From positions 11,847,223 to 11,911,222 of the forward strand of contig OW285197.1 in assembly GCA_935421135.1 (NCBI GenBank): a stretch of DNA of 64,000 nucleotides. The letters are read 5' to 3'. The notes under the pieces are model-generated. The model did not search any database, had not been told where the DNA came from, and saw only the letters and a list, made by a program, of their open reading frames with translations. Each line of letters starts with the position of its first letter. The first letter of the stretch is position 1. A program made the translations under genes and the position numbers. Of the stretch, positions 200 to 17,529 are shown one piece after another. The stretch is from Bugulina stolonifera. Lineage: Eukaryota; Bryozoa; Gymnolaemata; Cheilostomatida; Bugulidae.

Positions 200-1386
200 C
201 TGCTGGAGTTCACCTCGGACTTGGTGTACAGTGTAGCAAAACTACAAGGCGTCGACATTCCAGTTAGCATGAGGAGAGTTTATGATTTGGTTCACATAGC
301 CACGGAGTTTATAAACACTTACTTCCATAAGTGGATCTACGCGCAAGGCGGCTGGGTAAGTCGAGGCAGTATAACATTGTCACAATATTTTATTGATTGC
401 AAACCATTTTCGAAGTGACTATAGCATTTGATTTAGTACTATATTATTAATAATATTATGTGAAACAGAATTGCCTGTAGGATTTTCTACTGCAAGCCTG
501 GTGAAAAAACTTATAATAATTTCAAGCGGTGGTTATTCAGTGCCGCTCTCTAGCAAATAACACAATTTATTGCTGTCTTCTAGAAAAATCACACGCAGTT
601 TAAAAGAGTGCCAAGGCACTCACTTGCTCGTGTAATATGCATGTTGTATTGCGATTAAACGAGAAGTAGAATTAAGTGTAACTCCCTGCTTGTTTTCACG
701 TCTTTCAGGAAAAAGTTGTAAGTTTGAAACCCTATCTTCAGAGAACTAAGTGTTATAACATTCCAGCAATGGCTATCTTTAAACCACCAGGAGATGATGT
801 TGACTTACATGAAAATCCTGATCAACTTTACTTTGATGAAGATGCCGCAATCAAAGAATTTTATATGGTGCAAAGAGAACACTTTCTTGCACACCGTAAA
901 GAGAGGGATTATGTCCCAGACCCACCTCTTGATGACGATTTTGAACACACGAAACAACAAGAAATCACTGACCGATATATGAAATTGATGCTACGGGACA
1001 AATGTTTTAAATCTCACCACCAATTGATGGAAAAACAAAGAGTGACACCAAACCCAGACAACCCCGATCTGTGGAAGCATGAGTATATGCCAGACTACAC
1101 TGGTGCAGAGGCTAACCTTGATGATGCGTTTGGTACTGATAGCGAAATATCCCAAATTAAGAAAAATTTTTTGAAGAACGCATTAGCAACCCAAGCCCAT
1201 GGGATAGACCCTCGGTTCCAGACGTTTACTGCTCCACATAAAAGAGATCAAAAGCGTCTTGGAGCTTACAGAGGGCCAGAAGATGAAGACCCAGAAGAGG
1301 ATACCAATTGTGAAGCTGCAGGATTTCGTTTAACAGATGGCAGTGTTCCAGCAGGTGCCGGTGGTGGCCCATGCTCTGGGTGTTAG
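200..1386 (+). CDS. Bcl-2-like protein, 3' end only (BH2 exon plus C-terminal extension)
   Basis: Two exons are visible, 200-355 (phase 0, after ..catag) and 709-1386 (after ..tttcag, stop TAG 1384-1386); the 5' part lies outside the window. The first exon is 156 nt and starts LLEFTSDLVYSVA, the back half of a BH1 helix, and ends YFHKWIYAQGGW. That matches the BH2 motif W-I-x-x-x-G-G-W of Bcl-2 family apoptosis regulators. It is nearly the twin of the 6675-6830 exon of the next gene. The last exon encodes 225 residues beginning EKVVSLKPYLQRTKCYNIPA, with a conserved YMPDYTGAE.N element and an acidic then Gly-rich end. I see no hydrophobic tail anchor, which most Bcl-2 proteins carry here. AATAAA occurs near 1500. 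Family assignment rests on BH1/BH2 pattern and gene structure; function (pro- or anti-apoptotic) cannot be told. Confidence 0.6.
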
Positions 1387-2669: not shown

Positions 2670-5600
2670 ATGAGTGAAGAGGAAGGTTTTGGACCAGAAC
2701 CATGTGGCTCATATCACCTGGTGGCTGGCTATGTTAAAAAAAAGTACGTACTTTTTTCGTTTCATGATCGTCTTTGTTAGACAGCATAACATTATGTCAA
2801 ATACTTGATGCAGGAGAAACTGTCACCAAATAAAGTTTTGAATTCACCGATAGTTAGACATCCAAGATTAGGCACAGTTGGTCTTGCGGTTCAACTTTAT
2901 TATTTCCCTCTAGATTCGTTTTCTGTTACCATATCCGTCAACTAGTGCCTGGCGATTTATGAGGCGTTAATGAATGGCTGAATATTGTTATAATTGGCAC
3001 CCATGGGAACCAGCACGTAGCTAGCTACTATTTCTACTACTCTTAGCTGTTTAGTATAAATGACAACAGAAACTAAACACTGATGGTGCAGAAACTAATA
3101 AGCACATTAGATAACAGAGTTTCTTTTTAAAAATCGTCAAATTATTTGTTCAGAGTAAAGAGGCTGTGATTGAATTGCATTATATTAAGTGGTCCATTCT
3201 CCTATAACTATACTATAAGATACTTTATTTAGCTTAAGATGTAGTGGGATGGTGCCTGGAGATGATCTAGACAGACTGTTTCCCCAGACACAACCTGACT
3301 ATGAAAGTAGTCAACTTCAAAACACCCTAGCCCAAGTGGGTGAGTCATGTCTTGATCCTGAACCATGATAACATTGGTGTTAGCTACCATTGCTTCGAAA
3401 TTTGCATGTCAGTAGATTTAGCTCCTAAAATTGGAGCTCACATAAATAAAAATGATGGAGTGTTCACTGTAAAACAAGTAACTACAGTTTAGTAGTGACT
3501 GCAAGTGATGGGAACCTGTCTGGTTATTACTGTGTCCTCAGCCAAAATAAGTAAAACTTTAAAGACAATGATGAAACTTGCCCTTCTGTTGTCAATGTCT
3601 ATCAAAATTTTTGCTTACCGTAATATCACAAAAACTAATGTAGCCATAGCAGCATGTTAATATACATGTATTTATTTATAACATAACACAGCTCTCCGTT
3701 TCAGCTTTGACCATAAAAATCATGGTCCTTAAATGAAACAATTAAAAACTTGCAGATCGAATGTGCAGGAATAATACTTGACTACGACCTCACTCGACCT
3801 GATCTTTAATTTTTATGTGTTATCGTGTCATTCTTAGAAAATACCATAACTAATAATGGAATGCGCTTAACCTAACCTAGAGCATGCTAAAGCCATACAT
3901 GTGTGAACATGTCCCTTACAACCAAAGTAATACGATATATAACTTTGCAACATATACCCTCATTCTAGTTCACCTTTTAATCCATAAATCTACAAGTGAC
4001 GTGGAGAAAGTTACGGCAGAAAAGATTGAACAAATTTTCTACATTACTGACTTGGAGTCAAAAGATCCGATAGTTATCAGTGTGTTTAACGACACACTGA
4101 GGGCGTGGCTACTCGACGATCAGCACGTCATGTGTTGGGAGAGAGTGCTCATGGTAAGCATGACATTGAAATGCCACATGATATATATGTCACATGATAT
4201 ACGTCACATGGTACACGAGTATGTCAAATAGTATGTCATTTTGTGATATATGTCACATGGTAGAGTCGGCGAGCCGTTCACCAATCTGTCCAATTATAGA
4301 CCTATCAATAGTATCTACACCAATAACTGAGTCAGTTCACAGGAAGTGCCGCCCTATGAAAGTAAATTTTGGTCCAACCGCAATGTGAGGACATTATTAC
4401 TTAACCCTTTATTCTTGTTATTCATCTTGCATTATACTCGTATATGCATGAGTTTAACTCAAATTGAACAGTTTTATTTTTGAGAATATTTTTGTGAATA
4501 TGATGTCACTTCCTGTTATTATTTGCAGGTTTTAGCGTTCACCATGTCTATGATTGAACAGAACATTATTCAACACAAGAAGAAATCTATAAATAGAATT
4601 CTCTTGCTGGTGGGACTCTGTGCTGACTTCCTCGACTACTTTATGGCTTCCTTTATTAACACTGCAGGTGGATGGGTAAGTGGGTGCATAACAACAGTTT
4701 ATAAAACTAGCAACGGGCATACAAATGCCTCTTCAAAGACTACCCATGTTTGCCTGCCTTATCTTAGTATGCCAAGTTTGTTGAAGGCCAAGCAATAACT
4801 CTAGCCAACACTTACCTTAAAACTGCAGAGTCTAGTTAAAAATGTCAATGTTATGACCTGTGAATAACAACTGACACCAGAATCGTATCGGTTTTCTGTC
4901 ATAATCTATAGTTATTGTAGTCGGGTTTCTTATTGGTAAGCGATAACATAATGAAACAGCAAGTGTTTGACATTCCAAACACAGCATTAAGGATTGAGGA
5001 CGTGGAGAGGTCGCCAGGGGGCACTGTTTATGTAAATAAAGCAGAGGTGCAGCAGAACACGCTGTTGGCCGAGCAGAAGGAGAAACTGGACTCGTCACAT
5101 GTCAACTATGATCTTATATCAGCTTATGTACGAGAAAAGTAAGTAAAAGTAGAGAGATAACTGGCAGCATGGGTATTAGTGGGCAGTTTGCAAATGATAG
5201 TTCACATCTGGATATTTAGCACCTAATGTACATTGTAGCTTAGCTTCAGGAGCTAACGGGTTTTTAGTTTTAAAATGGCTGCCTTCTAAATAAGATTTTG
5301 GTTAGTCACTGGAGGATAGAGACTATAGAGATAACCAAACAGACATGCTATCAATTTCAATTATTCCTATTTGGTCAGTCATTGAACAGGGAGTTAACTG
5401 CCTTCCAATTGGTTTGATCAATGCACTATTTAATGTTATGTCAAATGTTAGGTTAGTTTGTTCGCAATTTAGCAACTTTTTAAAGGTGTAATATATAGCT
5501 GATGTAACTGAAAAAATTCTTTTATCATAGTTTAGCAGCTCGTAACGAAATTGAAGATAAAGTTGGATACATCTTGCCCCAAATTCTAACCATCTTGAGA

Positions 5601-7774
5601 GCTCAAGAAACTGAATACGCTCAGTCGGAGATCATTGTAGCCATGGTAGATGTTGGTAAGAAATGTGAACAGTTGCTTTAGATAATATATACGTGTACAC
5701 AGACTTTGTGAAGTTGAATGTAGAGTTTTATGTAAAAATATCGCGACTATTTTCTCTGTTTTGAGTTGCTTCCCTATCAACAATTTACAGCGTCTATATT
5801 TATATATTTATATTTATTCCATATCCTCAATAGGTATATGTAAGCATGTGCATAAATTGGCAGGCTCAAGTTAGGGTTGGATGGTAACTAAACCATCAGT
5901 AGCCGAGTTGCAAAGAAAAATAGGTTAAGACATGGCTGTGACAATTTAAAATGCGCACTAAGCTCTTTTAAAATAGGTTGGGGGGATGGGGGAAATTGCT
6001 GCAAATGGTTTTTAAACTGTTGGAAAACCTGGAACAGAGGCTGAGACACGTAGCGTGCCCATCACAAAAGTATCTCTACATAGACTGATTTAAGACTTTT
6101 GTTTGAATAGCTAGATGGCTTATGCCATGTGTGGCTCACAAGTACCATTCAGTGACCGCTTGTTGGAATGAACAGATCCGAATAATGAGAGATCTGTGTG
6201 TAGCCAAACACTTGGTGTGGAAAAGTTTCGATATAATGATGTTCTCATGGCTTGTGCAAGACAACGCTACACCTACCTGGGATAGAGTCATTATGGTGGG
6301 TGAATAATTCAATCTCCGGTTTCTCTGAATATCCGTACTTTGTCAACCTCCAAGTTCTTCCCAAATAACACATTCTAATTGATGGTCTCTCTTGAACTTT
6401 GCGCTACAGCAAATATATTCTCGTTTAACACAATGCGGTCAAAAAAATTACAATTCCATTGAAATGCTTAAATCATGATTATTTTTGATGCAAATGTTAA
6501 ACATCGCGAAGAGAAGACAAAATAACTTAGTATTCTTCCTATCCTAATACAATTATTTTTCTTTGGTGACTGAGTTAAAATTTGCATTCTTTGAAGCATT
6601 AGATTTATATTCTCTCAATGTGATAGACTGTTATTCATGTGCAATGTTAACTAATAAAACATTGCATTTCACAGGTAATAGAGTTCACCTCAGATCTTGT
6701 GTACAGTGTTGCTAAGAGGAAGGGTGCTAGTCAAGAGGTCCAGTTAAGAAGAATCTATGATTTGGTTCACATAGCTACAGAATTTGTTAATAACTACTTT
6801 CACAGATGGATCCAATCACAAGGGGGCTGGGTGAGTATCTCCCTTGGTGCTAAGGCTATGCTAGTGTAAAAATGTGATTTGATGAACTGCTAGTCTTTAG
6901 CAATGCTGAATTTCGTGATAAAGAATCTACACATTAGATTTGTCTTCCTTTTTAAGTTGAAATTTTCGTTGACAAGGCTGAATGGGCCAGTGTGGACAAA
7001 CTGCATCAAGACTTAATAGGAATCTGCCCTTTTTCAGAAGACAGTAAATACAATAACTATCAACTTGGCAAACCACAACCCAGTTTCATATTGCTGCAAA
7101 GAGATGCAAATAGTACGTGTAGGTGTGCAGTTTATGCAGCCAACGTCATATCATCATGTTTTTATAATGTTGTTGGCAAAATATCAAAAAGAAGGTTGAC
7201 TGATAATAGACCAGGCTCTGATATACTACTTGTATTTCAGGCTAAGTTGGTGGATCGCAAAAATTATCTCACCTGTACCAAGGTTAATAATATCCCAGCT
7301 ACAGCTGTTGCCAAGATGCAGGATCCAGCATCATTGAAACAGTACCCAGACCAGAGAGTACTTGTACCACAGCCCATGACCAATGAGTATAAAGTTATGC
7401 GGAGAGAGCATCTCTTTCGTAATCCACCAAAAGATGGGTGCTGTACTGATCCAATCTTGGTCCCAGGTTTAAAGAAACTACGGCAAAATGAGATGAATAA
7501 ACAAGACAAGAAACTTTATGATCGAGAAAATTTGATGCGGCAGAAAGAGGATCTAATTGCTATGCAGAAATTTGCACAGGAGAATCCACAGTTCTGTTGC
7601 GAGGAATACCTCCCTGGCTACACTGGAGAAGATGTAAACTGTGACGCGGTGTTTGCTGGTGACCAAAAATTTGGCCAAATCATTGCTGGAAATAATGTAG
7701 ACTTAGGTTACACTAGAGGACCGGTAGCTGGCAACCAACAACAGCTCTATGAACTTAGAGGGTGCAAGAATTAA
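2670..7774 (+). CDS. tandem (two-unit) Bcl-2-like protein, 576 aa
   Basis: Nine exons join in one frame: 2670-2743, 3233-3339, 3969-4153, 4529-4675, 4921-5138, 5531-5655, 6111-6295, 6675-6830, 7241-7774. Unit 1 (about 1-171) ends CWERVLM|VLAFTM (BH1, Trp117) and FINTAGGW (BH2, Trp171). Unit 2 (about 225-399) ends TWDRVIM|VIEFTSDLVYS (BH1, Trp342) and YFHRWIQSQGGW (BH2, Trp399). The 185-nt exons carry a BH3-like core in the same column: IFYITD and IRIMRD. Exon 5 (from 4921, phase 0) begins with 22 residues that align without gaps to the start of the last exon and to that of the neighbouring gene, then ends ISAYVREK like an N-terminal exon; this is why I join the two units. The 177-residue tail has YLPGYTGED and no membrane anchor. 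Alternative: two genes, the second starting at ATG 4951. Bcl-2 folds regulate mitochondrial outer-membrane permeability; the role here is unknown. Confidence 0.6.
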
Positions 7775-8951
7775 GCAGTAATCAAAGAAGTCAGTCTAGC
7801 CACGGGAAATGGTGAATTTGAAAGAGCTGAATTGATTAGCATAGCAATTCTAATTCTAAATTATGTTTTCAATCATTGGACAAATTTGCTGAACCACCTG
7901 TTGTACTACATCTATTATTACACATGGCTATGGTAGTGTTGAAATGGTACTAATAAATCCTAATAATATAATACGACTATTGCGCCTGTGGACATTAAAA
8001 ATATTAATACTATCCTCCTTTCCAACAATTTGACTGTCACTCTTTCTAAGGAAGAAGCTCATGACAGCTTGACCTATTTTATAGTTTGAATCAAACTACC
8101 CCAACTAGTAACAACGATTGATTTCCAAACTATATGATTCTAATTCTAATTATATCAGGCTAGTGCATTTAGGTATTAGCACCATGTATCATCTTAGCAT
8201 CAGGATTAGCACCGTAAGACTTTCAACAGAAGGATATCAATATGATTTTACTAAATAACTAAAATCACTCCATTAAGTTCGGTGAGATACAAGTTGCAGG
8301 TTGTTGCTAGGCAACAGTGTGTGTGTGAATCAATAGAATATAAGATAGGCGATAGCTTTATTAAGCATGGATAGCTTTATTAAGCATGGATAGCTTTCTG
8401 TGGGTGTTGATAGCTCAGCTTAGCGTTCACCGCCAGCTTTTTGCTCAGTCATCCTACCTGTATGGACATTTTGTATTTGGTTTAAACAAGGAACTGGCAG
8501 GGTTGGAGCTGAGAGATGGTAAGGTGTATCAGTATGTATACATATATGCGTATAAATAGACTGGTAGACAGTGCAGTAGATTACAGTTCATAGCAATAGA
8601 CTTGATAGTGAGCAGAGAAAGAATAGAAGAACTCAGACTATTATTGATCTCTAACATAAGGATCCATAAGATAGCCCACAATTAATTTCTATTTCGCATT
8701 GGCTGATATATTAACGTGCTACGAAATGATATTAATGAGCAGGGACTGCAGCACTAGGCATAGTTTACAGTAAACTAGATTTCAATTTCACTGTAAAATT
8801 ATTCTTGGAATTTTCAATAAGTACATGAATTGTATACTATTAGTTATAGTAGTTATTGGTACTAGTAGCTAGTACCAATAACTACTAACAACTAGCTACA
8901 GTTGGTATATAACATGGTATAACCATTCCTTCGTAGAGAGAGCCTTAGAAG
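7775..8951. other. intergenic spacer
   Basis: Contains AATAAA near 7952 (probable polyadenylation of the tandem Bcl-2-like gene), a 2-copy repeat of GATAGCTTTATTAAGCATG near 8350-8395, and a strong inverted repeat at 8848-8886 (listed separately). No exon recognised. Confidence 0.5.
8848..8886. repeat. perfect 18-bp inverted repeat (3-nt loop) before a Bcl-2-like start
   Basis: Left arm AGTAGTTATTGGTACTAG (8848-8865), loop TAG, right arm CTAGTACCAATAACTACT (8869-8886) are exact complements. The structure lies 65 bp before the presumed ATG at 8952, so it may sit in the promoter or 5' UTR. Confidence 0.8.
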
Positions 8952-10329
8952 ATGGATTTAGCCTGCAAAGTTTACCTGATGAGCTTACCATACTATGACG
9001 TTGTGACATCGCATATTCGACAGAGGTTGGAATGCTACGTGTATAATATTATACTAATATTAAAAAATTCCCAAAAGATGAAATTCGATATTCTTTTTTA
9101 TTGTTTAAGTGAGTTTTCTACTTTCTACTGCTTTTTAAAAGTTTCTATAGTCAAATGGCAGATGAAAAGTTTCCTGGACTCCGCCCACAATTTTTAGAGT
9201 CCTATCCAATAGCAGTCTTAAATATTTACATGGGCAAGTAGACAATATAGTTTATTTTTGTTCAATTTTAGTTACGAAGGTAAACCACATGAGCCCGTGA
9301 TATCCCACATACTTCCTGTTAGCAATACAGACTTCAAAGACACTCCAATGCTGACCAATATCCAACTATGTGGTAAGAGTTCACAAATATAATGCAAAGT
9401 AAATTCTCTTAGTTTTCGCTCTATTTATTTTCTTTTGTTGCAATTGATGAATCAAAAATGAAATGGTGGACATTTCTTTCCCACTTATTTTTTATTTAAT
9501 TTGTTAATTACAGTACTGTGTACAATAAAGTCTGATTTAATGAATTTTAGCTCATTCAGCACTGAAGAATAATAGCGTAGCTCGAGAGCAGATAACTCAG
9601 CACCACAGTCAAGCACTCCGCAGAGTTACTGAGACCCAAAGTGAGGCTGTCGAGGCAAAGATTGCTTTCAATCACATTCTTCACATGCTGGTGCAGCCTA
9701 CTATTAGCAGCATTGATTGGACTTCAGTAGGTCTGGTAAGCCTACCCACCCCTTTATTTATCACACTTTAGATTGGTTTGTTGCTTCTGTCTATTTTTTA
9801 AGATTCGTCTTAACCCGATGAAACTGTAAATAGGCATGAAGTATATTTGGTACATGGTAGTGGAAGGTAACAATACTTTTTAACTGAAGTACTATATTGT
9901 CTACCCACGCAAGACCTCTACCATGGATGAATTTTGTAACAAAATTTAATAGCCTGAGCTCCAATATATAAAGATACCAGGTAGTTATCAATAACTAAGC
10001 TACACAGCAGGAAGACAACTATTTTTGGCAGGCTGGTGTTTTAATAAATGCAACTTGCTCTAATTCTAAACATACATGTACATATTTTATTATAGAGCTG
10101 TATTAAATATTTATTTCCTGGACAGTTATATTTTATCTTTCAGTTAATTGGTTTCACAACCGACCAAGCTCATAAAATAACTGATCTCTATGAAGAAGAA
10201 CAAGTGGATCTCTATGCAAACAGAATTCAGGAAATAGTCACATATGCTCTTATATTCCTTAATGAGCATCTTGCCAGCTTTATTCAACGGGCTGGTGAAT
10301 TTGAGGCAACTGGCATCACTATTAAATAA
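8952..10329 (+). CDS. single-unit Bcl-2-like protein, 181 aa
   Basis: Four exons: 8952-9025, 9272-9372, 9551-9735, 10144-10329 (stop TAA). The first exon is 74 nt, as in the tandem gene, and carries YYDVVTSHIRQ, like YDLISAYVRE there. The third exon is 185 nt and has the BH3-like segment QALRRVTETQSEAV, close to the LRRVGD core of Mcl-1/Bcl-2 but with Gly-Asp replaced by Thr-Glu. It ends SSIDWTSVGL and continues LIGFTTDQ: a BH1 motif with Trp115. The BH2 position reads FLNEHLASFIQRAGEF, so the usual GGW is lost and the protein stops 10 residues later with no membrane anchor and no C-terminal extension. A downstream in-frame ATG at 8979 is another possible start. Exons 2 (part), 3 and 4 are repeated in the tandem copy that follows. 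Confidence 0.6.
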
Positions 10330-11722
10330 TTTCTTATATACAAGGCTTGCTTAAAAAACTGCAATGTTGATCAGTGCATTCTCGTATACAAATGTAGAAC
10401 ATCGCAGATTCAATATTAAGTAGTAGTAAAGCATGAGCAATTTTTAAATAGAATCATATGTTTGGCTCTTCTCTTAAAAAAAACTTTGTAGACCTAGTGT
10501 AATATCCCCAAGGTAACTCGCACCATGATCTACAATAGTTTGGAAATAATGACCTGTTAGAGCGAAAGTTGTATAAAACCGGCCAAACATAGAATTCTAT
10601 AACATTGTTATTTTCAGAGCCACACAGATGTAGTGGTTTGAACTGGAGCAGAGATGGGAGAAACCAGAACTGCTTTTCTGGAGAACCTCAAGTTCTCCAA
10701 TGTTATTTTTTCGTTTATTAGCTAATATTGAAGACAATAAAGCTACTATGGTTTCTAAACTGACCTTCACCTCACATTTATTCACTTTGAATTGGCCAAT
10801 TACACATCAGAATCTGTTATTATTGCCTCCAAGTTTTAAATTAACTACAAGGTCCTTATTTGGGTATCACTATCTGGTAAATTTGCCAGCTATGACCTGG
10901 ACACTTTAGAATGGTGCATTTAGAAGGAAGCTATTACATAATAGTTGCACATGCGTATAATATGTTGAGCTGGCAGTCATTGTGCAGCTGTATAATGATA
11001 CAAAATGGTGGAAGTTGTTAGCAGAGAAATGTGTTTATTACTTGACTAACTTATGGTTGAAACAAGACTGATACAGGCTAGGCTTATGAAAGAGAATGAA
11101 GAAAAAAGAAGCATGCTGAGCTAAAGCTTTGTAGTAGCTATGATATTCACCTATGAGCTTACCAAATAATATAAGATAAGACAACTCTATTACAGCTACA
11201 GAGGTACCAGATTGTTAGTTCAACAGAATATACCAACCAGGCAGCTCATTTCTAAAAATTAACACAACTATGACATTCTAAATATAAATGAATCAGTTCT
11301 GTCCAGTCTAAGGATTGATTTTGGTGCCAGTGCCACAGAAAACATTGAATTCTGGTCTATTTCTGAAGTTCATGATGCAACAGGCTTTCGGTGGTGTTGT
11401 TGCTTTGGTTGTTGTTGTTGTTGTTGTTGCTTTTTGTTGTCTTTGTTTTTTTTATCTTTCTATTTAAAATAAAATCTCAATATTTGTAAAAAATGGTGAC
11501 AACGGTTTATTGGTTGTTAGATTACATGGTGGTACCAATTTAATCAGTTTTTGAAAGTATACCGAGTAGAACGTCATAATTGCTCATTCAGATAATATTT
11601 GACATGCAAGATACAACATTAAACAGTACAGTAACTAAATGGATGCATTGTTTATCATCATGTACACGTAGTATTAATCAAAGTGTTATGAGATGTTGTG
11701 GTGTTCTGGGGTAAATCTGACA
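10330..11722. other. spacer inside duplication unit A
   Basis: No gene recognised. It contains a short (GTT)n tract near 11398-11430, repeated in unit B near 15510-15542. Confidence 0.5.
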
Positions 11723-11957
11723 TCAAATCTGAACCAAGCCATGTACTTCAATCTCATAAAAGTTTAGAGCAGCATCAGCTTTAACAGCTGTCATCCTCAC
11801 ATATCTACCATACATTCTGGTGTGACAGGTCATCAGATATGGATCCATCGGTGGTCTTCCAGGAAGGTAGTTACAGATCTCATCTTCTGGAGGATCATCA
11901 AAGTTAGCATCACTTTCACCAACTGTCACTCTTACATTGATTAGTCGATCTTAATAT
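11723..11957 (-). pseudogene. broken last exon of an F5/8C (discoidin) lectin-like gene, copy A
   Basis: The minus strand reads VGESDANFDDPPEDEICNYL then TRMYGRYVRMTAV and LNFYEIEVHGLVQI-stop, the C-terminal half of an F5/8 type C / fucolectin-like domain. It is closely similar to the exon at 60916-61151 but one base shorter. At the 5' end the W-N-D-R-L of the intact copy is replaced, and a TAA stands in frame directly before D-R-L. No matching upstream discoidin exon was found nearby, so this looks like a relic. Confidence 0.65.
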
Positions 11958-13417
11958 CTGTGGCATAAATAAAACAAAACAAATAATTTATTAGCTGAAC
12001 ATTGAGTAATCAAAATATTCATGAAGCAAAAATAATGTGATCAGTTATGTATTAATGCATCAGTCTAAAGTATTGGTTCTGAATTTAGGGCTGTAGGTAT
12101 TAGGATAGAACAAAACAAAATGTTCTATTCAAACAATGTGAGAGGCTCTACCAGTCACTGAGTGCTATTGCATTATTCAAATCGTGGCTACCACATGCCC
12201 TGTCAGAAACGTTCAAAAGCGCACACTATACCTTCAGCAGTAAAGGCAGGCTTATTCTTTACAATAATCAGCATCACACAGGGAGAAGGGAAGGTTTGGA
12301 TTTATTGTATTAGAAGCTATCCAACCTTGAATAATGCTCGTTATTTGTGATACAGCGTTATATTTCCACTAAAGAAAATATAATCAGTCTTGCATCAGCT
12401 AGCATGGCATGGCAAATTTCTTCCCTTCATAAAACCATAATTTAAAATTATACACCTAGTAAAATTATAAATAAATAGTAATATTGTAGTGAATCAGCAT
12501 AGCCTGCAGCAGCATGGACTATACCTTGTGCCAATATTATTATGCATAAATCCTATACATGCTTAAAGAGGGAGTATTTCCAAAATTGACCAAAACCAAT
12601 CAAAAGGCTGAATAGCTTGTTGAATAGTACTTGCCTAGAGCTATTCAAAATGGTCTGCCAGTGCAACAGCAGATGATGTCATCTACCACAAATGGATCTC
12701 AAACAAAGGCAGTCTATGTCATCTGAGTAATCCAGTTAACCTTGTTATAAAGCACATGGAAAGGCTTTTATTCAATAACTTTTCTATTAACCAAGAGTTT
12801 ATAAATTCCTTCTACACTTTTGATAACATGATACTTGGCCACCTATATTCACTTGTCTTTTTTATTTCAAACATCAAGGAAGTGCAATTAGCAAGGAAAC
12901 TTCTCATTTATTTGAGGGTATACTACAATGATAAGACAACTTCTTCATATTTTCTAAAAACTCCCATGAGTGAATAGAGTTAGTGGGTGTCCGATTTTTC
13001 AGTATTTTTCCAAAATACACATAACTACTTATGGTAAAACAATATTAGCGCCCAAAGAGAAATGAATAACCAAATTTAGCATAAATGGTTTCCAATTATA
13101 TTTCTCTGCTCATACAAGAGGGGACAACTTAGGAAGACTACCCAGTCTTTGGTGCTACTCCCACTTTAACATTACACTTACTACCTTATACATGCTTGAC
13201 ATTGTACCTATTATCTTATTATTGTTATCAACTACTGCATGTATGATGTGTATTATATTATTATTAGCCAATCAGGCCTTCGCAATTATTGTATAAGTCA
13301 ATTACAATTACTTCTTTGCCTGATTATTACTCTAAGTCCTTTTACCTGTATACTTTTGGGGCCATAATTACATACTATCTGGCTGACGTATTTTCACCAT
13401 GTTGTTATGTAATTTCC
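11958..13417. other. spacer inside duplication unit A, right part
   Basis: AT-rich sequence without recognised exons; short open frames here have no family resemblance and occur identically in unit B. Confidence 0.5.
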
Positions 13418-14441
13418 CACATACTTCCTGTTAGCAATACAGACTTCAAAGACACTCCAATGCTGACCAATATCCAACTATGTGGTAAGAGTTCACAAAT
13501 ATAATGCAAAGTAAATTCTCTTAGTTTTCGCTCTATTTATTTTCTTTTGTTGCAATTGATGAATCAAAAATGAAATGGTGGACATTTCTTTCCCACTTAT
13601 TTTTTATTTAATTTGTTAATTACAGTACTGTGTACAATAAAGTCTGATTTAATGAATTTTAGCTCATTCAGCACTGAAGAATAATAGCGTAGCTCGAGAG
13701 CAGATAACTCAGCACCACAGTCAAGCACTCCGCAGAGTTACTGAGACCCAAAGTGAGGCTGTCGAGGCAAAGATTGCTTTCAATCACATTCTTCACATGC
13801 TGGTGCAGCCTACTATTAGCAGCATTGATTGGACTTCAGTAGGTCTGGTAAGCCTACCCACCCCTTTATTTATCACACTTTAGATTGGTTTGTTGCTTCT
13901 GTCTATTTTTTAAGATTCGTCTTAACCCGATGAAACTGTAAATAGGCATGAAGTATATTTGGTACATGGTAGTGGAAGGTAACAATACTTTTTAACTGAA
14001 GTACTATATTGTCCACCCACGCAAGACCTCTACCATGGATGAATTTTGTAACAAAATTTAATAGCCTGAGCTCCAATATATAAAGATACCAGGTAGTTAT
14101 CAATAACTAAGCTACACAGCAGGAAGACAACTATTTTTGGCAGGCTGGTGTTTTAATAAATGCAACTTGCTCTAATTCTAAACATACATGTACATATTTT
14201 ATTATAGAGCTGTATTAAATATTTATTTTCTGGACAGTTATATTTTATCTTTCAGTTAATTGGTTTCACAACCGACCAAGCTCATAAAATAACTGATCTC
14301 TATGAAGAAGAACAAGTGGATCTCTATGCAAACAGAATTCAGGAAATAGTCACATATGCTCTTATATTCCTTAATGAGCATCTTGCCAGCTTTATTCAAC
14401 GGGCTGGTGAATTTGAGGCAACTGGCATCACTATTAAATAA
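13418..14441 (+). pseudogene. 5'-truncated copy of the single-unit Bcl-2-like gene
   Basis: Carries the end of exon 2 (13418-13484), exon 3 (13663-13847) and exon 4 (14256-14441), all identical in coding sequence to the upstream gene as far as I can see. Exon 1, the exon 2 acceptor and the promoter region are absent. It would not make the full protein by itself. Because its acceptors are intact, a transcript from the upstream promoter could in principle splice into these exons instead. Confidence 0.7.
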
Positions 14442-15834
14442 TTTCTTATATACAAGGCTTGCTTAAAAAACTGCAATGTTGATCAGTGCATTCTCGTATA
14501 CAAATGTAGAACATCGCAGATTCAATATTAAGTAGTAGTAAAGCATGAGCAATTTTTAAATAGAATCATATGTTTGGCTCTTCTCTTAAAAAAAACTTTG
14601 TAGACCTAGTGTAATATCCCCAAGGTAACTCGCACCATGATCTACAATAGTTTGGAAATAATGACCTGTTAGAGCGAAAGTTGTATAAAACCGGCCAAAC
14701 ATAGAATTCTATAACATTGTTATTTTCAGAGCCACACAGATGTAGTGGTTTGAACTGGAGCAGAGATGGGAGAAACCAGAACTGCTTTTCTGGAGAACCT
14801 CAAGTTCTCCAATGTTATTTTTTCGTTTATTAGCTAATATTGAAGGCAATAAAGCTACTATGGTTTCTAAACTGACCTTCACCTCACATTTATTCACTTT
14901 GAATTGGCCAATTACACATCAGAATCTGTTATTATTGCCTCCAAGTTTTAAATTAACTACAAGGTCCTTATTTGGGTATCACTATCTGGTAAATTTGCCA
15001 GCTATGACCTGGACACTTTAGAATGGTGCATTTAGAAGGAAGCTATTACATAATAGTTGCACATGCGTATAATATGTTGAGCTGGCAGTCATTGTGCAGC
15101 TGTATAATGATACAAAATGGTGGAAGTTGTTAGCAGAGAAATGTGTTTATTACTTGACTAACTTATGGTTGAAACAAGACTGATACAGGCTAGGCTTATG
15201 AAAGAGAATGAAGAAAAAAGAAGCATGCTGAGCTAAAGCTTTGTAGTAGCTATGATATTCACCTATGAGCTTACCAAATAATATAAGATAAGACAACTCT
15301 ATTACAGCTACAGAGGTACCAGATTGTTAGTTCAACAGAATATACCAACCAGGCAGCTCATTTCTAAAAATTAACACAACTATGACATTCTAAATATAAA
15401 TGAATCAGTTCTGTCCAGTCTAAGGATTGATTTTGGTGCCAGTGCCACAGAAAACATTGAATTCTGGTCTATTTCTGAAGTTCATGATGCAACAGGCTTT
15501 CGGTGGTGTTGTTGCTTTGGTTGTTGTTGTTGTTGTTGTTGCTTTTTGTTGTCTTTGTTTTTTTTATCTTTCTATTTAAAATAAAATCTCAATATTTGTA
15601 AAAAATGGTGACAACGGTTTATTGGTTGTTAGATTACATGGTGGTACCAATTTAATCAGTTTTTGAAAGTATACCGAGTAGAACGTCATAATTGCTCATT
15701 CAGATAATATTTGACATGCAAGATACAACATTAAACAGTACAGTAACTAAATGGATGTATTGTTTATCATCATGTACACGTAGTATTAATCAAAGTGTTA
15801 TGAGATGTTGTGGTGTTCTGGGGTAAATCTGACA
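14442..15834. other. spacer inside duplication unit B
   Basis: Same content as 10330-11722; nothing further recognised. Confidence 0.5.
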
Positions 15835-16069
15835 TCAAATCTGAACCAAGCCATGTACTTCAATCTCATAAAAGTTTAGAGCAGCATCAGCTTTAACAGC
15901 TGTCATCCTCACATATCTACCATACATTCTGGTGTGACAGGTCATCAGATATGGATCCATCGGTGGTCTTCCAGGAAGGTAGTTACAGATCTCATCTTCT
16001 GGAGGATCATCAAAGTTAGCATCACTTTCACCAACTGTCACTCTTACATTGATTAGTCGATCTTAATAC
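15835..16069 (-). pseudogene. broken last exon of an F5/8C lectin-like gene, copy B
   Basis: Same as the copy at 11723-11957, with the same one-base deficit and the same premature TAA. One base next to the splice acceptor differs between copies (a T/C difference at 11957/16069). Confidence 0.65.
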
Positions 16070-17529
16070 CTGTGGCATAAATAAAACAAAACAAATAATT
16101 TATTAGCTGAACATTGAGTAATCAAAATATTCATGAAGCAAAAATAATGTGATCAGTTATGTATTAATGCATCAGTCTAAAGTATTGGTTCTGAATTTAG
16201 GGCTGTAGGTATTAGGATAGAACAAAACAAAATGTTCTATTCAAACAATGTGAGAGGCTCTACCAGTCACTGAGTGCTATTGCATTATTCAAATCGTGGC
16301 TACCACATGCCCTGTCAGAAACGTTCAAAAGCGCACACTATACCTTCAGCAGTAAAGGCAGGCTTATTCTTTACAATAATCAGCATCACACAGGGAGAAG
16401 GGAAGGTTTGGATTTATTGTATTAGAAGCTATCCAACCTTGAATAATGCTCGTTATTTGTGATACAGCGTTATATTTCCACTAAAGAAAATATAATCAGT
16501 CTTGCATCAGCTAGCATGGCATGGCAAATTTCTTCCCTTCATAAAACCATAATTTAAAATTATACACCTAGTAAAATTATAAATAAATGGTAATATTGTA
16601 GTGAATCAGCATAGCCTGCAGCAGCATGGACTATACCTTGTGCCAATATTATTATGCATAAATCCTATACATGCTTAAAGAGGGAGTATTTCCAAAATTG
16701 ACCAAAACCAATCAAAAGGCTGAATAGCTTGTTGAATAGTACTTGCCTAGAGCTATTCAAAATGGTCTGCCAGTGCAACAGCAGATGATGTCATCTACCA
16801 CAAATGGATCTCAAACAAAGGCAGTCTATGTCATCTGAGTAATCCAGTTAACCTTGTTATAAAGCACATGGAAAGGCTTTTATTCAATAACTTTTCTATT
16901 AACCAAGAGTTTATAAATTCCTTCTACACTTTTGATAACATGATACTTGGCCACCTATATTCACTTGTCTTTTTTATTTCAAACATCAAGGAAGTGCAAT
17001 TAGCAAGGAAACTTCTCATTTATTTGAGGGTATACTACAATGATAAGACAACTTCTTCATATTTTCTAAAAACTCCCATGAGTGAATAGAGTTAGTGGGT
17101 GTCCGATTTTTCAGTATTTTTCCAAAATACACATAACTACTTATGGTAAAACAATATTAGCGCCCAAAGAGAAATGAATAACCAAATTTAGCATAAATGG
17201 TTTCCAATTATATTTCTCTGCTCATACAAGAGGGGACAACTTAGGAAGACTACCCAGTCTTTGGTGCTACTCCCACTTTAACATTACACTTACTACCTTA
17301 TACATGCTTGACATTGTACCTATTATCTTATTATTGTTATCAACTACTGCATGTATGATGTGTATTATATTATTATTAGCCAATCAGGCCTTCGCAATTA
17401 TTGTATAAGTCAATTACAATTACTTCTTTGCCTGATTATTACTCTAAGTCCTTTTACCTGTATACTTTTGGGGCCATAATTACATACTATCTGGCTGACG
17501 TATTTTCACCATGTTGTTATGTAATTTCC
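16070..17529. other. spacer inside duplication unit B, right part
   Basis: Copy of 11958-13417 with no recognised exon. It ends at the breakpoint TCC, 17527-17529. Confidence 0.5.

Follow-up and report, generated by a model that had tools for sequence, protein, structure and literature searches.

A nine-exon gene with two Bcl-2-type units

Gene B of the bryozoan Bugulina stolonifera lies in a 64,000-nt stretch of DNA, referred to throughout as the window, on contig C11 (OW285197.1) of a genome of 235 Mb. Its nine exons span 2670-7774 on the plus strand and encode 574 aa in a single stop-free frame; every intron is of the GT-AG type. The protein consists of two Bcl-2-type units, each built from four exons. 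Exons 5-8 repeat the phases 0>2>1>0>0 of exons 1-4 without deviation, and a length of 185 nt is shared by exons 3 and 7. The exons are as follows (BH, Bcl-2 homology).

2670..2743, plus strand: gene B exon 1; ATG and N-terminal segment of unit 1 (BH4/alpha1-like by eye), with a counterpart in the upstream gene A
3239..3339, plus strand: gene B exon 2; unit 1 as far as the middle of the BH3-equivalent helix
3969..4153, plus strand: gene B exon 3 (185 nt); unit 1 to BH1 (CWERVLM)
4529..4675, plus strand: gene B exon 4 (147 nt); unit 1 BH2, its last residue being the Trp of GGW
4921..5138, plus strand: gene B exon 5 (218 nt); fused exon with the post-BH2 segment of unit 1, a GGTVY linker and the N-terminal segment of unit 2
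5531..5655, plus strand: gene B exon 6 (125 nt); unit 2 as far as the BH3-equivalent helix
6111..6295, plus strand: gene B exon 7 (185 nt); unit 2 to BH1 (TWDRVIM)
6675..6830, plus strand: gene B exon 8 (156 nt); unit 2 BH2 (WIQSQGGW), its last residue being Trp
7241..7774, plus strand: gene B exon 9; post-BH2 segment, hydrophilic C-terminal extension and stop

The original prediction, made from the window alone, had described nine exons that keep one frame across two BH3-BH1-BH2 sets. The exons, the frame and both BH1/BH2 sets stand; the 'BH3' of each unit, at a position assigned by hand in the present analysis, does not carry the G-D signature.

Kinship with the Bcl-2 family

The usual picture of a Bcl-2 protein is a single fold that contacts other family members or BH3 peptides in trans; one fold per protein is customary in the family, not a defining trait. 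The Pfam family PF00452 matches the whole gene B protein in two stretches (E-value 8.5e-13; 49.2 bits against a curated cut-off of 31.4). Taken alone, unit 2 scores above this cut-off (33.3 bits) and unit 1 below it (25.1 bits, E-value 2.7e-5). Each of four related genes, A, C, D and E, likewise contains two PF00452 stretches, and all ten units of the five genes match the family at E-values of 1 or less, the best at 1.1e-11.

Comparison with PDB sequences points in the same direction. A profile of the ten units matched 144 distinct sequences at an E-value of 1 or less; the best 60 of the 144 are all named as Bcl-2 family members, with Bfl-1/A1 at the top (8.9e-8). The profile covers BH1-BH2 of the PDB Bcl-2 chains and, for Bfl-1/A1, the preceding stretch as well. 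With a profile of unit 1, 143 sequences were matched at the same threshold (best 3.7e-6); the 60 listed are again Bcl-2 family chains, one of which (3qbr) carries a locus-type name. Two ordinary Bcl-2 proteins of the same genome, compared by profile, aligned over 98 and 61 columns around BH1-BH2 at modest probabilities of 30% and 70%, so the N-terminal helices are placed by eye only. Other Pfam matches of gene B are weak and fall below their own cut-offs, for example BALF1 (E-value 0.017 for the whole protein, 0.011 for unit 1). We consider it highly probable that the gene B protein contains two Bcl-2 folds.

Five genes with the same layout on two contigs

The original prediction could not see that an exon at 709 of the window ends a second two-unit gene, A, whose start lies outside the window; the complete gene is found when the 10 kb upstream (L008) are included. 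Its last two exons fall within the window.

200..355, plus strand: gene A exon 8; unit 2 BH2
709..1386, plus strand: gene A exon 9; post-BH2 segment and C-terminal extension

Exons 3-8 of A and B are equal in length (185, 147, 218, 125, 185 and 156 nt), and exon 5 aligns between the two without indels. Identity amounts to 57% in unit 1 (96/169), 51% in exon 5 (37/73), 56% in unit 2 (95/171) and 29% in the tail (52/177). Nonsynonymous divergence (dN) lies at 0.34-0.38 for unit 1, unit 2 and the fused exon and at 0.73 for the tail, while 71-84% of synonymous sites have changed in the units and fused exon, that is, at or near saturation. The two kinds of change were compared by these values and not by a formal ratio test; change in the fused exon between A and B is mostly at synonymous sites.

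With unit 2 and the gene B tail as queries, a genome search gave 16 matches at an E-value of 1 or less, confined to A, B and a cluster on contig C4. Reading 40 kb of C4 revealed three further genes, C, D and E, with the nine-exon plan, the exon phases and the fused exon of gene B, the fused exon being 215-260 nt long in these three. The two-unit genes found number five, on two contigs. Exons 3 and 7 measure 185 nt in nine of the ten units and 188 nt in the other, and GT-AG borders enclose all 39 introns of the five models; none of these figures can serve as independent evidence, because the models were picked partly by splice sites, phase and homology. The proteins of genes D and E start with MGN, a motif that could permit N-myristoylation.

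Whole-genome searches with E (19 matches), C (20 matches) and exon 5 of A (2 matches), which score best candidates only, gave no match outside genes A-E. Exon profiles were scanned over the 30 kb upstream of the window, the window's first 20 kb, 40 kb of C4 and 20 kb of contig C8. The fused exon 5 of genes A-E scores 106-119 bits there, and elsewhere only partial matches of at most 12 bits occur, so the other Bcl-2-like exons in the scanned regions show no sign of two-unit genes. Protein database searches with gene B (6187 candidates), the ten-unit alignment (842) and an alignment of the five proteins (7067) gave no match at an E-value of 1 or less. A plasmid search with gene B gave none either, as expected.

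A fused exon joins the two units

The junction between the units is exon 5, whose start resembles the exon that follows BH2 and whose end resembles an N-terminal exon. The alignment that had been proposed between the start of this exon and the exons at 709 and 7241 proved to extend over 24 residues without a gap, with offset 0 the best of 201 and 153 offsets, respectively (shuffled-residue p 0.00095 and 0.0029). When exon 5 of all five genes was compared with the same two exons, offset 0 ranked first in nine of the ten comparisons and second in the remaining one, with shuffle p values from 0.00005 to 0.014. The linker motif reads GGTVY or DGTVY in genes A, B, C and E.

It is very probable that gene B gives a single transcript. 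Exon 5 of C, D and E contains no Met, nor is there one in frame between the acceptor and the preceding stop, so unit 2 of these genes gets no ATG start from exon 5. In A and B, exon 5 does hold Met (positions 4 and 10 in A, 11 in B), and the Met test alone therefore leaves a separate start possible in those two. In A, B and D a stop in the same frame lies directly ahead of the exon 5 acceptor. Unspliced read-through past exon 4 stops after 3, 40, 2, 4 and 2 residues in A, B, C, D and E, respectively; since a stop is met within 2-4 residues in all genes except B, where it comes after 40, there is no shared terminal exon directly after exon 4.

Accidental joining, by the reading frame, of two neighbouring genes or of the separate coding regions of an operon would accommodate the Met codons in exon 5 of A and B, and the joining of gene B has been read from genomic sequence, not from transcripts. 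This account is nevertheless very improbable given a fused exon with the same phases in five genes on two contigs, the Met-less exon 5 of C, D and E, the in-frame stops just before the acceptor and the early end of read-through. A decaying or non-functional duplicate is more improbable still: the units have diverged and some motifs are degenerate, but the nine exons are free of stops and frameshifts, and the low dN beside near-saturated synonymous sites, fused exon included, speaks against decay. Pseudogene, accidental joining and operon were each considered for gene B and rejected on these points. The fused two-fold protein of the original prediction is well supported, with five paralogues alike, a fused exon free of indels between A and B, and no Met in three of the five fused exons.

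Proposed origin of the fusion

A tree of 12 rows was built from the ten units plus two ordinary Bcl-2 proteins (the single-unit neighbour gene in the window was left out). The first units group together, with support 66/99. Sorting the rows into unit 1, unit 2 and ordinary Bcl-2 takes 2 changes on the tree, the fewest possible, and none of 200 shuffles went as low; terminal branches are long, with a median of 0.99. The simplest account of these sequences would be a single fusion that preceded the spread of the family. Two adjacent Bcl-2-like genes would have been joined once, the last exon of the first and the first exon of the next merging into exon 5, and the fused gene would then have multiplied on two contigs.

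BH motifs, introns and tails

The ten units resemble Bcl-2, Bcl-xL, Bfl-1/A1, Bax, Bak and Bok in their PF00452 match, the Trp and basic residue of BH1 and, mostly, the GGW of BH2. The Trp of BH1 is present in ten of ten units, as is an Arg or Lys two residues on. Between them, the Gly of the canonical NWGR is found in no unit: the position reads W-D/E-R/K nine times and W-S-K once. BH2 has GGW in eight units, with GHW and GDW in the other two. At the hand-placed BH3 position, the G-D of LxxxGD occurs in none of the ten units, and the BH3-equivalent helix is split by an intron.

Eight other Bcl-2 loci of the same genome (L001-L007 and L036) served for comparison. Six matched the BH1 pattern, all with Gly, although the pattern also allowed D, E and S; the pattern was absent in L004 and L005.

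In the models of all ten units an intron follows directly after the BH2 Trp. Pro-survival genes of the mouse, as well as genes of sponges and placozoans, are described with the same boundary (PMC8998228). An intron-split BH3 is also a feature of mammalian Bok in that account (PMC8998228); the likeness is one of intron position, compared by hand, and does not imply kinship of sequence.

The C-terminal extensions of all five genes are without a hydrophobic stretch or membrane anchor (Kyte-Doolittle-19 maximum at most 0.44), and Pfam offers no match to the tails of A and B at an E-value of 10 or less. Unlike the usual multi-motif Bcl-2 proteins, the present ones thus have two units, have lost the NWGR Gly, show no BH3 G-D, carry no C-terminal anchor and use four coding exons per unit.

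Other Bcl-2 proteins without the NWGR Gly are on record. A placozoan Bcl-2 protein without this Gly has been judged unlikely to have a functional groove, and mouse Boo has Ser in its place and altered selectivity (PMC8998228); the G145A form of human Bcl-2 reportedly binds neither Bax nor Bak (PMC5841437). Proteins without the Gly are still counted as Bcl-2 members in the cited text, so NWGR is not strictly defining (PMC8998228). Trichoplax Bcl-2L4 (PMC8998228) and human Bfk (PMC8814693) likewise lack an intact NWGR in these accounts. Both differ from the bryozoan proteins in being single folds, with Gly replaced by Arg in Bcl-2L4 and BH1 absent in Bfk, whereas here Asp or Glu occupies the position in 9/10 units.

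What the two-unit proteins may do

Overall, the best explanation, which we consider probable though well short of assured, is that gene B encodes one polypeptide of two diverged tandem Bcl-2-type helical units and a hydrophilic tail, and that at least four further genes make up a family with it. As to mechanism, we tentatively propose a soluble covalent pseudo-dimer that regulates with altered grooves. The grooves would be altered by the acidic residue in place of the NWGR Gly, and the protein might act via other surfaces or very selective ligands; its role would be neither that of a membrane-anchored BH3 receptor nor that of a pore former.

More speculatively, and with correspondingly less confidence, an old fusion could have produced a covalent two-fold class of Bcl-2 proteins outside mitochondrial BH3 signalling. 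Its members would be soluble pseudo-dimers whose grooves were closed or retuned by the conserved acidic BH1 residue, whose conserved GGTVY linker and tail provide new interaction sites, and which multiplied for another regulatory role, such as defence.

A number of observations weigh against this set of interpretations. On the side of the architecture, conservation within exon 5 is lowest over its first 29 residues (34% identity, A versus B); the post-BH2 motif is gone from exon 9 of D and E and shifted in exon 9 of C; the GGTVY linker motif is not present in gene D; and exon 1 of gene C was not found in the reading of C4. On the side of the history, the second units are not one clade in the best tree, where enforcing their grouping was not rejected (p-AU, from the approximately unbiased test, 0.345), and good support is limited to 2 of 9 inner branches, with 7 of 9 open. 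On the side of the mechanism, the basic residue of W-x-R/K is retained in all ten units, which argues for some groove function and leaves room for selective ligands. The single-unit neighbour in the window reads W-T-S at the NWGR position in a rough model, so loss of the Gly is not peculiar to two-unit genes. Finally, unit 1 of A and B has a hydrophobic helix on its BH2 side (Kyte-Doolittle 1.97 and 1.82), so that membrane contact is still conceivable.

Some poxviral Bcl-2-like proteins are groove-less adaptors. A role of this kind, with a Bcl-2 fold serving immunity or stress signalling, as in those proteins or human Bfk, would be in keeping with the altered BH1 and with the many weak Bcl-2-like exon matches, several of them arrayed, that suggest a lineage expansion; Bfk is presented as a Bcl-2 fold without a groove in the excerpt cited (PMC8814693). 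The BH1 Trp, however, is kept in 10/10 units here and missing in Bfk (PMC8814693). We regard an adaptor role as unlikely.

Somewhat less likely again is a pro-survival receptor with two grooves for two BH3 ligands or for one effector dimer. Such a protein would fit the W-x-R/K in BH1 of ten of ten units, the GGW in BH2 of eight, and Bfl-1/A1 as the best PDB sequence match of the unit profiles. It is difficult to reconcile with C-terminal extensions that have no anchor and with the loss of the NWGR Gly from all ten units, given that Bcl-2 G145A reportedly loses both Bax and Bak binding in the passage cited (PMC5841437). Binding of two BH3 ligands was the function envisaged in the original prediction, and the sequence gives it no support, with the NWGR Gly lost in 10/10 units and BH3 G-D in no unit; the mechanism proposed there is weaker than the anatomy. 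A soluble two-fold Bcl-2 derivative whose groove is putatively altered seems to us a better reading than a receptor that binds two BH3 ligands.

The surrounding locus and the genome at large

The neighbour of gene B that has a single unit is represented by a rough model.

8950..10329 (approximate, splice sites unrefined), plus strand: single-unit Bcl-2-like gene; PF00452 E-value 0.0027, 18.7 bits, below the cut-off

Its later exons are copied by a direct duplication of 4121 bp (window 9297-13417 and 13409-17529, 99.8% identity), which is either recent or an assembly artefact. Upstream of gene A, several more BH2-type exon matches lie on the minus strand (C11:11817223-11847222), and the locus looks like an array of Bcl-2-like genes.

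Across the genome, PF00452 gives 56 matches at an E-value of 10 or less and 7 at 0.001 or less, many of them a single BH2-type exon. The sites include C8:6.65-6.78 Mb, C11:11.02-11.10 Mb and C11:14.07-14.10 Mb, among others, and their number suggests that Bcl-2-like genes may have expanded in the lineage. In the 20 kb of the C8 cluster scanned with exon profiles, no fused exon was found. Nine open frames of equal length (178 aa) and near-equal weak Bcl-2 score occur at C1:17350333-17350587 (in L058) and at eight places on C1, C2, C3, C4, C5 and C7. The C1 frame, the one of the nine that was read, matches PF00452 over a 169-residue piece (E-value 0.0022, below the cut-off) and has a C-terminus that is hydrophobic by eye; the nine are perhaps carried by a mobile element.

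Contig C27 is the mitochondrial contig (14440 bp). The protein genes recognised by eye are all on one strand, and no atp8 was seen among them; judged against a COX1 consensus, a table-5-like code fits it best, which points to a bilaterian invertebrate. This contig and the Bcl-2 genes both speak for an animal genome. Further COX1 matches with in-frame TGA lie at C26:34375-36051 and C12:7199-8926. The one on C26 reads with TGA as Trp and looks ciliate-like; a contaminant or symbiont in the assembly is a possible source.

Significance

Among the papers listed by searches of open-licence literature, none reports a tandem or duplicated Bcl-2-domain protein. If gene B and its relatives are indeed natural, conserved tandems, they would provide a test of two Bcl-2 folds working as a dimer in cis, and the two-unit genes would equally offer a test of what the Bcl-2 fold does once the NWGR glycine has been lost. 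The two-unit family, if true, would show the reshaping of a death-control family in an understudied animal lineage.

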